From NCBI GenBank assembly GCA_021162935.1, contig JAGGXR010000093.1, forward strand, positions 1 through 63,317: a stretch of DNA of 63,317 nt, read 5' to 3'. The notes under the pieces are model-generated. The model ran no database searches and was not told the origin of the DNA. It worked only from the letters and a program-made list of their open reading frames with translations. This document shows positions 23,962 through 47,292 of the stretch, in pieces. A program made the position numbers and the translations under genes. This DNA comes from Deltaproteobacteria bacterium. Its GTDB lineage: Bacteria; Myxococcota_A; Polyangia; HGW-17; SLPX01. Each line of letters begins with the position of its first letter. Within the stretch, counting starts at the first letter, position 1.

Positions 23962-24060
23962 TAACCCCCATCCTTCGATCACTTCCTGGTCTTTTTACGA
24001 AATCGACCCGACGATTGAGGCCATGTTGCTGTCATGACGATCTGTTGGGTTGTTTGGAGG

Positions 24061-24090
24061 TTGCGGCGAGGCGAAGTTTGGACCTATAAT
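24061..24090 (+). promoter_or_regulatory. Putative promoter of the CBM9 lipoprotein gene
   Basis: TTGCGG (24061-24066), 18-bp spacer, perfect TATAAT (24085-24090). Transcription would begin near 24098, fitting a start codon at 24116 with AAGGG just before it. Confidence 0.45.
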
Positions 24091-24115
24091 TGGACCCATG
24101 ATGCAACAAGGGCCC

Positions 24116-25480
24116 ATGGATTTGGGTTGGCAGCAACATTTCGAGTCGAGAGGTCAAATATTGATTTTGCGGCATCTGTTTGTGTCTGTCTTTTTTCTCT
24201 TCGGAAATTTTGGTTGTATGCTGCATTTCCCCGATGTCGCAGCATGTGGAGACGGGGTCGTGGTTTCCGGGGAGGAATGTGACGACGGTAACGTCGATGA
24301 CGGGGACGGATGCTCGGCGGACTGCCGGGTGGAGACTGGTTGGTCCTGTACGGGGGCGCCGAGTCGCTGTGAGTCGAGCTGTGGCAATGGAGTGATCGTC
24401 GGGCAGGAGGAATGTGACGACGGTAACGTCGATGACGGGGACGGATGCTCGGCGGACTGCCGGGTGGAGACTGGTTGGTCCTGTACGGGGGCGCCGAGTC
24501 ATTGTGAGTCCGGATGCGGGGATGGCGCGATCGTCGGGCAGGAGGAATGCGACGACGGCAACGCCGATGACGGGGACGGATGCTCGGCGGACTGTCGGGT
24601 GGAGAGCGGTTGGTCCTGCACGGGGGTGCCGAGTCATTGTGAGTCCGGATGCGGGGATGGCGCGATCGTCGGGCAGGAGGAATGTGACGACGGCAACGGT
24701 GACGGCGGCGATGGATGTTCTGAGGATTGTCGGGTGGAGACCGGCTATTCGTGTGTGGGCCAGCCTTCCGTGTGCGACTCGACCTGTGGCGACAGAATCG
24801 TCGCTTTCGACGAAACTTGCGATGACGGCAATACAGAGGACGGCGACGGATGTTCGGGAGACTGTCAGGTGATGGATCGGTATTTCGTTCCAAGGGCTGC
24901 TGGCCCGATGGTCGTGGATGGACGCTTGGATGAGTATGAAGGTGTGCAGAGAATCGTCTTGACCGTCCCGGAAACCGGGGCAGTGGCTGTCTTTCGGTTG
25001 ATGTGGGACGACGTGGGCCTTTACATAGTGGTCGATGTCCGGGATACCGACCTCGAGGCCACGATAACGGAGCAGGATGGCCAGGTGTGGCGCGATGACG
25101 CAATGGAGATTGTTCTCGATGTCGGTCGGGATGGGACCGGAAATACGTCTGATGCCCACATAATCATAAATATTCTCGAAGTGGTCATAGACAGTTTGCA
25201 TGGTGACATGTCGTGGTCGGCGACACTTGCCACCGCGGTCCGGATGCAGGGAACCTTGGGGGATCCGTCCGACGAGGATCTGGGCTATCAAATGGAAGTG
25301 CTCATCCACTGGGACAGTCTTGGGGTCCCCGCCCCCATGCCGGCGGAGGAATGGGGCATGGATGTCCAGCTGTCGGACCGCCGGGGGGACGAGTATTGGC
25401 AGGTTCCCTGGTGGAACAGTGACGGTGGGTGGACTGGGAATCCACAAGGATTAGGGACCATGGAATTCATGGGGCAGTAG
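24116..25480 (+). CDS. Secreted DUF4215 repeat protein with C-terminal CBM9-like domain
   Basis: About 454 residues. The N-terminus has a hydrophobic segment (ILILRHLFVSVFFLFGNFGC) that could be a lipoprotein signal. Five DUF4215-type units follow, each with CGDG, ECDDGN, DGDGCSADC and a further Cys pair, spaced exactly 45 residues. The C-terminal 190 residues (VVDGRLDEYEG, FRLMWDDVGLYIVVDVRD, WRDDAMEIVLD, YQMEVLIHWDSLG) match the CBM9/DOMON-like carbohydrate-binding fold. The likely role is surface-displayed carbohydrate binding on a rigid Cys-repeat stalk. ATG 24116 is chosen from the promoter and ribosome site; earlier in-frame starts at 24050 and 24098 are possible. Confidence 0.75.
   Translation: MDLGWQQHFESRGQILILRHLFVSVFFLFGNFGCMLHFPDVAACGDGVVVSGEECDDGNVDDGDGCSADCRVETGWSCTGAPSRCESSCGNGVIVGQEECDDGNVDDGDGCSADCRVETGWSCTGAPSHCESGCGDGAIVGQEECDDGNADDGDGCSADCRVESGWSCTGVPSHCESGCGDGAIVGQEECDDGNGDGGDGCSEDCRVETGYSCVGQPSVCDSTCGDRIVAFDETCDDGNTEDGDGCSGDCQVMDRYFVPRAAGPMVVDGRLDEYEGVQRIVLTVPETGAVAVFRLMWDDVGLYIVVDVRDTDLEATITEQDGQVWRDDAMEIVLDVGRDGTGNTSDAHIIINILEVVIDSLHGDMSWSATLATAVRMQGTLGDPSDEDLGYQMEVLIHWDSLGVPAPMPAEEWGMDVQLSDRRGDEYWQVPWWNSDGGWTGNPQGLGTMEFMGQ
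24247..24870 (+). repeat. Five in-frame 135-bp tandem repeats
   Basis: The marker GAGGAATGTGACGACGG recurs at about 24272, 24407, 24542 and 24677, with a diverged fifth copy near 24812: always 135 bp apart. Copies 1 and 2 are nearly identical over 90 bp and copies 3 and 4 share other changes, pointing to stepwise duplication and ongoing homogenisation. Confidence 0.9.
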
Positions 25481-27799: not shown

Positions 27800-29542
27800 T
27801 CAGTTGGGCGGGGGAGGAGGCGGCACGAAGCCCTGCACCACGTACACCTGGCCAGCGTACTCGCCGCCCCACGTCAAGAAGAGGAAGTCGCCGCTCACCT
27901 TGTCGAAGTAGGCCCCCCATGGTTTTGGAAATGTGGTGAAGAAGTCTTGTCTCGTGGTGGTGGTGGGGTCACCGTTTTGGTCCACAAGGTAGACGGCCAC
28001 CTTGTTCGCGGACCATTCCGCCACGATGAGGCTTTGGCTCGCAAATCCAGGCGATCCAGCCGGCACATACGCGAAGCCGCCTGGGCCTCCCTGCAGGCGC
28101 GATGCAGCCACCTGGACCGGATTCGACAGGGTGAACAAAGAGCCGTCGGCCTGGTAGTCCATGTGGTACCAGCATCCGCCGCTCCAGGTGGAAAGCCGCA
28201 TCTGACCGGCAGCCGTCAAGTTCGGCGGCACGAACCCGATGCCGCCTGGTCCTTGGTCTGCGCCCCCGCAACCAGAGGCCAGGGCGCTCACGTCCGTCTC
28301 CCTGTCTGGCGTCGTATGCCCGGGCAGAAGTTGGCCGACTTTCTGGACCGGCCATTCCGTGTAGAAAAGATCTTGGGCGGGCCCGTACACGAGATTCGCG
28401 TCCACGTAGGGTGTGGTCGCAAGCGGCGTCGCGTCTTGGAATGCGAGCAGGTGGCCACAGGGGCCGCGCTGCACGCCCACTTCGTAGATTTGGCCGCCCG
28501 CTTCTTCACTGTTGACCGCCACGAGGAGGATGTCGTTGTCCCAGGACGAGATGGTCATGCCGCCGAGGTGGGTCGTGGTCACGCCCGGGATCGCGCCGAG
28601 ACGGTAGGTGCTGTACAGGCTTGAAAAATGGGTGGCGAGCTGCGCCTCGGATCCGGCCAGCGTCGACGGGGTTTCGCAGATGTCTCCACAGTCCGTGTCT
28701 GTGATACCATCGCAGTCGTCGTCGATGCTATTATCGCATGCCTCGATTGCGCCCGGGTGCACATCCGGGTCGCTGTCGTCGCAGTCGCCGTTGGTTTCGG
28801 TCCAGCCGTCGCCGTCGATGTCTTCGTCCACGAGGAAGTCGCAGTTGTTGTCGATGCCATCTCCCGCAATTTCGGGAGCACCCGGATGCACGTTCGGGTT
28901 CGTGTCGTCGCAGTCGCCGCCACAGGGACCGTAGCCGTCACCGTCCTGGTCCGGTTCCTCGGAGTCGGTGGCTCCGTTGCAGTCGTTGTCGATTCCGTCG
29001 TAGCAGTTCTCGGCCATACTCGGGTTCACCAATGGGTCGTGATCGTTGCAGTCCCCATTGGCTTCGGTGTAGCCGTCTGTGTCGAAGTCGCCATCCACGA
29101 CACCGTCGCAGTTGTCATCTTTGCCGTTGCCCGCGATCTCCTCGGCGTGGGGATGCACGTTTGGGTCGCCGTCGTCGCAGTCCCCCAGGCAAGGGCCGTA
29201 TCCGTCACCGTCGGCATCGGGCTGCTGGTCGTCGGTGAAGCCGTCGCAGTCGTCGTCCATGCGGTTTCCGCAGACTTCGACCGCACCTGGGTGCACATCC
29301 GGATTGCTATCGTCGCAGTCGCCTTGGATTTCATTGTACCCGTCGTGGTCGTCGTCCGATTGGATGTCCGGCCCGGCGTCGACGGTCGCGCCGTCCACCG
29401 TCGCGCCGTCGACGGTCGCGCCGTCCACTGTCAGCGCGTCATCCCCTGGTCTTTGCCCGCAGGCTCCGATCAGGAGCCACAAGAAGACCAGAACGCCACT
29501 CAATCCGTTTTTTTTTCTCCTGCTCGATGCAATGCCACTCAT
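27800..29542 (-). CDS. Lipoprotein with D-x-D-G-D metal-binding repeats and propeller-like C-terminus
   Basis: 580 residues. Lipobox LIGAC, then a linker of repeated TVDGA units (15-bp DNA repeat), then about six metal-binding repeats of the type DADGDGYGPCLGDCDDGDP followed by NVHP and DDNCDG (residues 60-270). The remaining 300 residues have no clear motif but alternate short strands with Gly/Pro turns (GGMTISSWDNDILLVAV, GGPGGFAYVPAG, DFLFLTWGGEY), as in a beta-propeller. It ends in six Pro and an Asn. The repeats bind Ca2+ in related proteins (family knowledge). Probably a surface protein; function unknown. Confidence 0.75.
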   Translation of the reverse strand: MSGIASSRRKKNGLSGVLVFLWLLIGACGQRPGDDALTVDGATVDGATVDGATVDAGPDIQSDDDHDGYNEIQGDCDDSNPDVHPGAVEVCGNRMDDDCDGFTDDQQPDADGDGYGPCLGDCDDGDPNVHPHAEEIAGNGKDDNCDGVVDGDFDTDGYTEANGDCNDHDPLVNPSMAENCYDGIDNDCNGATDSEEPDQDGDGYGPCGGDCDDTNPNVHPGAPEIAGDGIDNNCDFLVDEDIDGDGWTETNGDCDDSDPDVHPGAIEACDNSIDDDCDGITDTDCGDICETPSTLAGSEAQLATHFSSLYSTYRLGAIPGVTTTHLGGMTISSWDNDILLVAVNSEEAGGQIYEVGVQRGPCGHLLAFQDATPLATTPYVDANLVYGPAQDLFYTEWPVQKVGQLLPGHTTPDRETDVSALASGCGGADQGPGGIGFVPPNLTAAGQMRLSTWSGGCWYHMDYQADGSLFTLSNPVQVAASRLQGGPGGFAYVPAGSPGFASQSLIVAEWSANKVAVYLVDQNGDPTTTTRQDFFTTFPKPWGAYFDKVSGDFLFLTWGGEYAGQVYVVQGFVPPPPPPN

Positions 29543-29620: not shown

Positions 29621-29868
29621 CCATCCGATGATATCGATCCATTGCGTTCGGTGCAACGGCAACCCTTTCTGACTGCATCACTTTGGTGCGCCGACGAGGA
29701 CCTGACTGGTCTGGTCGTAGGTTGCCTGACGGATGGTCTGCGCGCTGTCTTCGTGCAGCTTCTAAAGAAAAAATATACATTCCAGAAAACAAAATGCTGT
29801 ATGCTGTTCCGTCACAGCCGATACCTCATTCGTCACAGGATGACAGGAATCGCGAGAGGAGGTCTATC

Positions 29869-30552
29869 ATGCGATATGTTTTCGATCCCCAGGTCATTCA
29901 CGAATGTTCGCTCAAGGGCCTTGGTCTGCCCAAACCCGAGATGTTCGATGCGATTGCCGATGCGTTCGAAGAGGCCTATCCAGGCCGGATCAATCGGACG
30001 CAGCCCTGGATCTACAGCATTGCGGGCGGCGCCATGATCCAGATGAAGATCTACTTTGCCTCGACCATGGAGTACCTCATCATTTGGGGCACGCCCATTG
30101 GGTCCGAGGGCCACTCGGGGCGCCACGCCGTGGCGTTCTGGGACACGGTCATCGACGGCAAGATGTGGTACTACGCCGAGGGACAGTTCGAAAAAAAGGT
30201 CTACAAACCAGGCGATCGCGTGTTCGTGGGCAAGGGTCAGGCCCGGGCCATGAATTTTACCGATGGCGTCTGGGCGGTGGAGTACGCAAGGGGCCCGATT
30301 CCGCTGTCTCTGCCCTTCGGTTTGGCCGACGAGCTTTTCAGTACCCTGGATTTCGCCACGGCAGCCCAGACGGTGGGCGGCTACATGGAGTTGCTCGGTC
30401 GCCATTGGACCGATGCGGAGGTTCAGGCGCAGACGGCTCCTTTGCTCGGGCCGGTCAAGCGCGTCGTGGGCTGGATTCCGAGACTCGCCGGTCCGGTCAT
30501 TGCGCGCCTCAGTCAGCCAAAGCCTCCCACGGACGAGATCCCCGACGGCTGA
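29869..30552 (+). CDS. ERG2: C-8 sterol isomerase, ERG2/sigma-1 receptor family
   Basis: 227 residues that match fungal ERG2 almost end to end: MRYVFDPQVIHE, LGLPKPEMFDAI, QPWIYSIAGGAMIQMKI, EYLIIWGTPIGSEGHSGRH, VYKPGD, AVEYARGPIPLSLPFGLADE and LFSTLDF. The two acids tied to isomerase activity and to ligand binding in sigma-1 receptor are kept as D92 (WDTVI) and E138 (AVEYARG). The enzyme shifts the sterol C8-C9 double bond to C7-C8. The N-terminal membrane helix of eukaryotic members is missing; a 60-residue C-terminal extension with a hydrophobic patch follows the core. AGGAGGT is ideally placed. It converges on an SDR gene with 5 bp between stops. Confidence 0.88.
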   Translation: MRYVFDPQVIHECSLKGLGLPKPEMFDAIADAFEEAYPGRINRTQPWIYSIAGGAMIQMKIYFASTMEYLIIWGTPIGSEGHSGRHAVAFWDTVIDGKMWYYAEGQFEKKVYKPGDRVFVGKGQARAMNFTDGVWAVEYARGPIPLSLPFGLADELFSTLDFATAAQTVGGYMELLGRHWTDAEVQAQTAPLLGPVKRVVGWIPRLAGPVIARLSQPKPPTDEIPDG

Positions 30553-30557
30553 TTCAG

Positions 30558-31370
30558 TTACGAGTTGTACATGGCCTTGGTTCCGGCGGACACCATGTGG
30601 CGCTGCAGGCGGCCTGGCAACAGACGGGTGATCCTGGCCGTGAGTCGTGCGGTCGCCTGTGGGATCACCACCGGGCCTCGGCCCAAGGCGTCCAGGGTTT
30701 GCCGGGCGACCAGGTCCGGACTTGCCGGGCGAGGCAGGAGCCACAGGGGCAGGTGTGGCTTGGTCCTGCGGAAGGCGGGCGTGTCGATGGGGCCTGGGCA
30801 GCTTGCCAGGACGTCCACGCCCATGGGACGTAGTTCCTGCCACAGGCCTTCGGCCAGGACTCGCAGATACGCTTTGGTGGCCGCGTAATGGGCCACGAGC
30901 GCCGTTCCCTGGAACGATGCCATCGAGGACATGAGCAGAATGCCACCGCGTCTGCGGGCGACCATCTCGTTGCCGTAGTGGTGCACCATGGCTTGGGTGG
31001 CCAGGCAGTTGAGCGCCACGGTTTGGTCCTGAATCTCAGCGTCTTGTTCCAGAAATGGGCCGATGGGGGCGAGGGCGGCGTTGCAGAGCAACAGGCCTAT
31101 CTCAAGGTCGGCGGTCTGTTGGAATAGATCTGCGACCGCCTGTCTGCTTGTGAGGTCGGCGGCGATGGTTCGGACCTGGCAGCCGTGCTGGTCTCGCAGG
31201 TTTCGGGCCGTCTCGTCGAGCCGTTGTCGGGAACGGGCCACCAGGACGAGGTCGAGTCCCCGGGTGGCAGCTTGGGCCGCGAGGCTGGCACCGAGACCCT
31301 CCGAGCCGCCCGCCACCAGGGACCAGGGGCCGTATCGCCGAGCGAAGTCTGTTTGTGGTGATGCAGTCAT
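30558..31370 (-). CDS. Short-chain dehydrogenase/reductase (classical SDR)
   Basis: 270 residues with the Rossmann signature LVAGGSEGLGASLA (20-33), a variant of TGxxxGxG with Ala in place of Thr, the acidic-strand region, NAALAP for the NNAG motif, SSMAS for the catalytic Ser, and YAATK for the Tyr/Lys pair. An NAD(P)H-dependent oxidoreductase of alcohols or ketones. GGAGG lies before the ATG at 31370. It converges on the ERG2 gene (5 bp between stops), so the two do not share a transcript, but the adjacency leaves room for a steroid substrate; that is only inference. Confidence 0.85.
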   Translation of the reverse strand: MTASPQTDFARRYGPWSLVAGGSEGLGASLAAQAATRGLDLVLVARSRQRLDETARNLRDQHGCQVRTIAADLTSRQAVADLFQQTADLEIGLLLCNAALAPIGPFLEQDAEIQDQTVALNCLATQAMVHHYGNEMVARRRGGILLMSSMASFQGTALVAHYAATKAYLRVLAEGLWQELRPMGVDVLASCPGPIDTPAFRRTKPHLPLWLLPRPASPDLVARQTLDALGRGPVVIPQATARLTARITRLLPGRLQRHMVSAGTKAMYNS

Positions 31371-46476: not shown

Positions 46477-47292
46477 ATGTCGGATACACATGGACCGGAC
46501 GGTCGGGTTGCCCTGATCACCGGGGCCTCGTCGGGGATCGGTGCCGCCTTCGCGCGGGCGCTGGCACGCGAGGGCCACGACTTGTGGCTCGTGGCCAGGC
46601 GGCGGGAGCGGCTGAAAACACTCGCGCAGGAGCTGCATACCCGGTACGGTGTGCAGGCGGCGGTTCGCGTCTGCGACCTGTCGGACGTGGATGCCCTGTC
46701 GGAACTGTGCGACGAGGTAGCCGAATCGCGCTCGGTGGATCGGTTCGTGCACGCTGCTGGCTTCGGCACGAGGGCGCCCTTTGCCGAGGTGCCCGGCGAG
46801 ACGCTGACCTCCATGGTCCGGGTGCACGTGGAGGCTGCGGTTCGATTGAGCCGAGCCGTCCTTCCCGGCATGTTGGATCGAGGGACCGGTCGGATCGTGT
46901 TCGTTGCCTCCATGGCGGCCTTCTTTACGACGAAACGCTACGTCCTCTACTCGGCGACCAAGACGTTGCTCAAGACATTGGCCTTGGGGTTCCGCGAGGA
47001 ACTGGTGGGGACGGATGTGCGCGTTCAGGCCCTGTGCCCGGGGCTGACCAGGACCGAGTTTTTCGAGCGGGACGACTTTGGTTTTTCCTACTCGGACGTT
47101 CCTCATTGGGCCTGGATGTCTTCCGACTCCGTGGTGCGGTCGAGTCTGGCAGGGCTGCGGCGGAATCAGACCATCGTGATTCCAGGGGTCGCGAATCGGT
47201 TGTTTTTTTTCGCGCTGGAAGCTCCTGTATTCGGCACGCTGACCAGGATCGGCATGCGCCTCGCGAGCCGTTCTGGCAAAGAAGTGTACTGA
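46477..47292 (+). CDS. Short-chain dehydrogenase/reductase
   Basis: 271 residues with a complete classical SDR set: ALITGASSGIGAAFA (13-27), VARRRER for cofactor choice (favouring NADP(H)), HAAGFG for the NNAG region, VASMAAF for the catalytic Ser, YSATK for Tyr/Lys, and CPGLTRTEF. The C-terminal part includes a hydrophobic stretch. It lies 9 bp after the subtilisin gene in the same direction and is probably read from its transcript, though no functional link is apparent. Confidence 0.88.
   Translation: MSDTHGPDGRVALITGASSGIGAAFARALAREGHDLWLVARRRERLKTLAQELHTRYGVQAAVRVCDLSDVDALSELCDEVAESRSVDRFVHAAGFGTRAPFAEVPGETLTSMVRVHVEAAVRLSRAVLPGMLDRGTGRIVFVASMAAFFTTKRYVLYSATKTLLKTLALGFREELVGTDVRVQALCPGLTRTEFFERDDFGFSYSDVPHWAWMSSDSVVRSSLAGLRRNQTIVIPGVANRLFFFALEAPVFGTLTRIGMRLASRSGKEVY

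Follow-up and report, generated by a model that had tools for sequence, protein, structure and literature searches.

A divergent bacterial member of the ERG2/sigma-1 receptor family from a Myxococcota genome that also encodes an oxidosqualene cyclase

Bacterial ERG2 is already known in the literature, where sterol gene clusters with ERG2 or C-8 isomerase homologues have been published (PMC9531527, PMC10202945, PMC13277303). They include the clusters of sponge symbionts (PMC9531527) and a Calothrix homologue assigned to 'C-8 isomerization' (PMC10202945). Enhygromyxa salina, an ERG2 carrier (loci L110 and L148 of the current analysis), is a cholesterol producer in which cholesta-7,24-dienol and zymosterol accumulate (PMC10202945). 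Zymosterol and cholesta-7,24-dienol are the substrate and the product expected of an ERG2-type step and hence support an isomerase reading of the bacterial members, which in general are, at our best guess, sterol double-bond isomerases. The sigma-1 receptor, which belongs to the same family, is not known to be an isomerase, and its Xenopus structures among the PDB matches of this study hold progesterone and DHEAS.

In the current analysis we describe a protein of this family encoded in the window, which is the whole stretch of 63,317 nucleotides that was analysed, from a Myxococcota MAG of 5.13 Mb (97.1% complete). PF04622 (ERG2_Sigma1R) is its sole Pfam family (177.6 bits, cut-off 21; E 2.7e-52), with residues 2-172 aligned to positions 21-198 of the 210 in the profile, and the match to the ERG2 family proposed in an earlier note, made from the letters of the DNA, is thereby confirmed by a profile search. 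No NCBIfam model was found for the protein. The closest solved protein by phmmer is the human sigma-1 receptor (5hk1; E 3.9e-30, residues 3-174). An AlphaFold2 model, for which 70 aligned proteins of the window and the related loci served as input, has a mean pLDDT of 90.6, and its top PDB matches in Foldseek are all sigma-1 receptors (E down to 1.4e-22). The model superposes on 5hk1 with a VIA-align Z of 29.3 and 1.6 A over 184 residues; the next-best fold is that of other cupins (Z about 11). The cupin-like barrel and the C-terminal helices of the sigma-1 structure are both present. The window protein is thus a genuine but divergent member of the ERG2/sigma-1 receptor family and fold. It shares the fold and the D126/E172 positions with the human and Xenopus receptors (5hk1, 7w2b, 8w4b), and differs from them in having 35% identity, no N-terminal transmembrane helix and a longer C-terminal helix.

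The features of the locus are collected in Table 1. The good ribosome-binding site that had been noted is present as AGGAGG ahead of the ATG. An N-terminal membrane helix is absent, as had also been noted: averaged over 19 residues, Kyte-Doolittle hydropathy peaks at 0.34 near the N-terminus and at 0.97 for the whole protein, and the in-frame extension upstream of the ATG, to 29683, is hydrophilic. The protein starts at the FDP motif at which the extracted prokaryotic copies generally start, and these likewise have no anchor. The lack of an anchor distinguishes all of them from fungal ERG2 and does not mark the window protein as a special soluble form, as had been supposed; membrane contact could instead be made via the C-terminal helices. 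The extra C-terminal helix extends past the '...GK[IL]' terminus of most bacterial homologues in the alignment, and the confidence of the AlphaFold model is 66-75 from residue 181 on. L084 and L105, considered as full-length homologues with such an extension, align to residue 225 in tblastn and do not have it.

Table 1. Coordinates of the ERG2-family gene in the window and of genes at the oxidosqualene cyclase (OSC) locus of the same genome
Feature	Position	Strand	Remarks and basis
ERG2/sigma-1-receptor family CDS	29869..30552	+	ATG to stop, 227 aa, no N-terminal anchor; PF04622, AlphaFold, VIA
Ribosome-binding site AGGAGG	29857..29862	+	6 nt 5' of ATG; read from sequence
D92 codon GAC, sigma-1-type acid (human D126 position)	30142..30144	+	alignment
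E138 codon GAG, invariant acid (human E172 position)	30280..30282	+	alignments
C-terminal part, residues 179-227, with extra helix	30403..30549	+	alignment and model helix 183-214
OSC	G000:C139:151-2031 (L032:145-2115)
U32-family gene beside OSC	L032:3397-4692		PF01136, 45 bits, cut-off 22.4
U32 and DAHPS/CM pair	L032:3397-5999 (C139)

Other genes of the window were also noted. A short-chain dehydrogenase gene (30558-31346, minus strand) lies tail to tail with the ERG2 gene, the stop of which is 5 bases away; the nearest NCBIfam models for the dehydrogenase are mycolate reductase and 7beta-HSDH, with scores far below cut-off, and a similar gene occurs at 46477-47292 (plus strand). The proteins encoded at 24050-25480 and 27800-29542 contain repeated 'EECDDGNxDDGDGCSxDC' and 'DGDCDDxxPxVHPGAxE' motifs, which are probably surface or metal-binding repeats.

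The human residues aligned with D92 and E138 are the Asp in 'EISDTI' and the Glu in 'WMVEYGRG', which we take to be D126 and E172 of the sigma-1 receptor. E138, within an [LV]E[YL] motif, is invariant in the 70-sequence alignment and in a larger one. Asp at 92 is common in the larger alignment to most prokaryotic copies and sigma-1, whereas in the E. salina ERG2 clade the acids are at 89-90 and position 92 is Phe, a pattern presumably followed by yeast ERG2, with an acid at 90 and Phe at 92. The window protein has A89 and F90 ahead of D92 and thus no fungal-like D/E at 89-90. Judged from the alignment, D92 is the sigma-1-type acid position and not the fungal one, so that the two acids placed by the earlier note at the sigma-1 receptor/ERG2 positions are where the human receptor has them, while the acid of the fungal-like clade is at 90 and not at 92. 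As residues 89-96 form a strand in the model, the side chains at 90 and 92 can face the same way, and the two acid patterns may be equivalent. The protein differs at 8 of 38 highly conserved columns, including G57I, L62Y and E98K, and in the larger alignment more departures are found only in sigma-1 (11 each) and L062 (9).

The main rival to an isomerase is a non-catalytic sterol- or lipid-binding protein resembling the sigma-1 receptor. Its probability is appreciable, though we consider it the less likely reading; it would fit with the sigma-1-type D92 in place of the fungal pattern, with the eight changed columns and with the sigma-1 receptor being the nearest PDB fold. However, bacterial copies encoded beside C-14 reductase genes, for instance those of Methylotuvimicrobium (L139) and Spirochaetes (L120), usually have Asp at 92 as well, so that this residue is no mark of a receptor. 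We know of no bacterial sterol receptors of the ERG2/sigma-1 family.

A tree of 88 rows, in which the eukaryotes are represented by two sigma-1 sequences from the PDB alignments and one yeast ERG2, places the latter in a clade (100/99) otherwise made up entirely of Myxococcota, E. salina among them. The window protein falls outside this clade on a long branch (end branch 0.77), near sigma-1 and other long branches and without support, and its forced placement within the clade is not rejected (p-AU 0.39). It differs from fungal and E. salina ERG2 in the acid at 92 rather than 90, in several changed conserved residues and perhaps in its position in the tree; with these and the bacterial sterol-cluster ERG2s it has in common the nearly full-length PF04622 match, E138 and an OSC in the genome. 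The long and unsupported branch, together with the presence of ERG2 in only two of the 13 genomes of the source order, could also point to a divergent remnant or a horizontally acquired gene acting on a non-sterol substrate. We hold this to be unlikely: the reading frame is intact, the ribosome site good, the acids conserved and the fold confident, and an OSC is encoded in the same genome.

The family had been described as essentially eukaryotic, a view that is contradicted by its occurrence in many bacterial phyla and in Asgard archaea. PF04622 is found in 34 of the 379 genomes of the source phylum, and 85 relatives turned up in GTDB species genomes. Those of the Myxococcota are from Enhygromyxa, Plesiocystis, Paraliomyxa and other MAGs; the others are from Mycobacterium, Chloroflexota, Bacillota, Spirochaetota, Acidobacteriota, Methylococcales and MAGs of Loki- and Heimdallarchaeota. 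Individual copies from Bacillota, Spirochaetota and Asgard archaea were confirmed with Pfam. No relative was found in the viral contigs searched.

The ERG2/sigma-1 genes of Loki- and Heimdallarchaeota MAGs are at L114, L136, L137, L138 and L149. Homologues have also been identified in MAGs of mostly anaerobic groups, namely Oscillospiraceae of the Bacillota (L098, L102), Chloroflexota (L101, L103, L109, L111, L133) and Spirochaetota (L119, L120), and in L120 an ERG24-type reductase lies directly 3' of ERG2. It is possible that these groups use ERG2 on scavenged sterols. In several species of Mycobacterium (L075, L077, L078, L081, L083, L087) a conserved ERG2 adjoins a gene on the opposite strand that is regulator-like in appearance.

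In the relatives ERG2 is associated with genes of sterol synthesis. OSC-like cyclases, which TIGR03463 tells apart from hopene cyclases (scores of about 340-910 bits, with 280 at most for the latter), are present within the source phylum in 27 of 34 genomes with ERG2 and 36 of 345 without (p 8e-18). Among the 68 genomes with OSC, ERG2 or both, CYP51 and C-14 reductase each occur in 28/34 with ERG2 and 10/34 without (p 2e-5 each). The full set of epoxidase, CYP51 and C-14 reductase is held by 24 of the 34. L033-L035 have ERG2 inside sterol clusters with OSC, squalene epoxidase, CYP51 and C-14 reductase; C-14 reductase is a shared neighbour in 16 of 87 ERG2 loci, in most of these directly beside ERG2; and in L105 ERG2 is separated by 44 bases from a gene similar to that of the sterol demethylase subunit SdmB. 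Three genomes (G001, G080, G356) encode ERG2, CYP51 and C-14 reductase, and a search of them for OSC and epoxidase found neither, as if they modified imported sterols.

The sterol context of the source genome is new. The OSC whose presence the earlier note had made a check of its reading is encoded there, scoring 805 bits to TIGR03463 (cut-off 851) and 272 to the squalene-hopene cyclase model TIGR01507, and has the motifs ISDCTAE (DCTAE) and ECSSS. It is on a separate contig (C139) from ERG2, and its gene ends 145 bases from the contig end. The tetranucleotide usage of the OSC contig is closer to the source genome than to the others compared, and contamination is therefore not indicated. Adjoining the OSC is a protein of the geranylgeranyl-reductase (GGR) family with a YxWxFP motif, a motif described for the myxobacterial C-24 sterol reductase whose activity was shown by experiment (PMC12004948).

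Searches of the source genome found no squalene epoxidase (PF08491), no P450 (PF00067) and hence no CYP51, no C-14 reductase (PF01222), no match to the alternative isomerase EBP, no UbiH-like flavoprotein and no heme-copper oxidase. A second FAD protein (C150), considered as a squalene epoxidase, has its best match in the GGR family and was matched weakly by the squalene epoxidase queries. In a fragmentary MAG with its OSC near a contig end, these absences are strong evidence without being conclusive. In that no C-14 demethylation genes were found the source genome differs from the fungal and bacterial-cluster ERG2 systems, and the normal role in late sterol synthesis assumed in the earlier note is not borne out by the gene content, with neither C-14 demethylation and reduction genes nor squalene epoxidase found. 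Since C-14 reductase, CYP51 or any other P450, EBP and squalene epoxidase were not found, the usual ERG2 substrates could not be made here by known routes, an apparent absence that also favours the non-catalytic binding protein. Without CYP51, the genes found in the source genome account for two modifications only, reduction at C-24 and isomerisation of a ring double bond.

The missing genes might lie in the unassembled part of the MAG, in which case the window protein would be a canonical Delta8-Delta7 isomerase of a complete aerobic pathway. The nearness of the OSC to a contig end, the completeness below 100% and the full aerobic set of most ERG2-bearing genomes of the phylum are in line with this explanation. 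We regard it as improbable, since P450, heme-copper oxidase and any UbiH-like or squalene-epoxidase flavoprotein were all searched in the source genome and none was found, and a second genome with ERG2 and OSC and without the same genes (G009) has the same arrangement of genes at its OSC, as described below.

On balance the window protein may well be an ERG2-type double-bond isomerase of the Delta8-to-Delta7 kind, acting on the product of the organism's own OSC or on a scavenged sterol; from sequence and genomic context we give this reading about even weight. Against it stand the absence of the genes for the usual substrates, the different contigs of ERG2 and OSC, the departures at conserved columns and the unsupported placement outside the fungal/E. 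salina clade. As an isomerase the protein would be cofactor-free and oxygen-independent. E138 and D92, in a buried cupin pocket, would add a proton to the ring alkene and abstract another from the opposite side, and the protein would probably sit on the membrane surface via its C-terminal helices. The likeliest substrate would be the tetracyclic triterpenol from the OSC, which the adjoining GGR-family enzyme may first reduce at C-24, or an environmental sterol.

Whether the OSC is supplied with a substrate made without O2 is a question separate from, and more speculative than, that of the isomerase. The gene order near the OSC on C139 is a U32-family protein (430 residues), a fusion of DAHP synthase and chorismate mutase (DAHPS/CM; NCBIfam PRK12595, 473 bits, cut-off 279) and then a farnesyl-diphosphate-synthase-like gene. 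The U32 and DAHPS/CM pair is found at the OSC of five Myxococcota genomes in all, the others being G009, G002, G385, which is of the source order, and G155 (loci L171, L187, L169 and L174), and these four homologues of the U32 protein also match PF01136. The G009 cluster contains HpnC/HpnD-type squalene synthases and mevalonate-pathway genes, and in this genome, with both ERG2 and OSC, epoxidase, CYP51 and C-14 reductase were searched and not found.

Among 47 OSC neighbourhoods, U32 occurs in 5, squalene epoxidase in 21 and both in none (p 0.056); the fusion occurs at 8, none of them with epoxidase (p 0.006); and every neighbourhood with U32 also has the fusion (U32 at 5/8 with the fusion, 0/39 without; p 4e-5), all these p-values being descriptive, as the groupings had been seen before being tested. 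In the loci read from genomes with ERG2 and OSC, U32 is at the OSC in both of those without epoxidase (the source genome and G009) and in none of the nine with it.

U32 oxidases such as UbiU/UbiV, RlhA and TrhP hydroxylate without O2, with prephenate reported or suggested as the oxygen donor (PMC11574389, PMC10470549). The OSC neighbour has in common with them PF01136 and conserved cysteines, and a dedicated DAHPS/CM, which would supply prephenate, adjoins it. It differs in an extra C-terminal CX4CX2CX2C, in its place in a squalene/OSC cluster and in resembling the E. coli proteins only remotely; one or two Cys align with the four-Cys [4Fe-4S] sites of the latter (model pLDDT 58). The OSC-linked U32 proteins share 59-74% identity with one another and eight Cys that are invariant in the five homologues. 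A literature search of incomplete coverage found no paper linking U32 to squalene or sterols. We tentatively raise the possibility, on the evidence of gene neighbourhoods and doubtful as yet, that the source bacterium and its relatives make oxidosqualene without O2 by a U32 iron-sulfur enzyme that takes oxygen from prephenate and replaces squalene epoxidase. The OSC, the GGR-type C-24 reductase and ERG2 would then complete an O2-free route to a 14-methyl sterol, for example lanost-7-enol.

That PF04622 occurs in many bacterial phyla and in Asgard archaea, some of the MAGs being assigned to mostly anaerobic groups, bears on the origin of eukaryotic ERG2 and sigma-1. On the accepted view O2 is required for making sterols, and the presence of steranes indicates both oxygen and eukaryotes. 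An O2-independent sterol route, if true, would change this reading of steranes.
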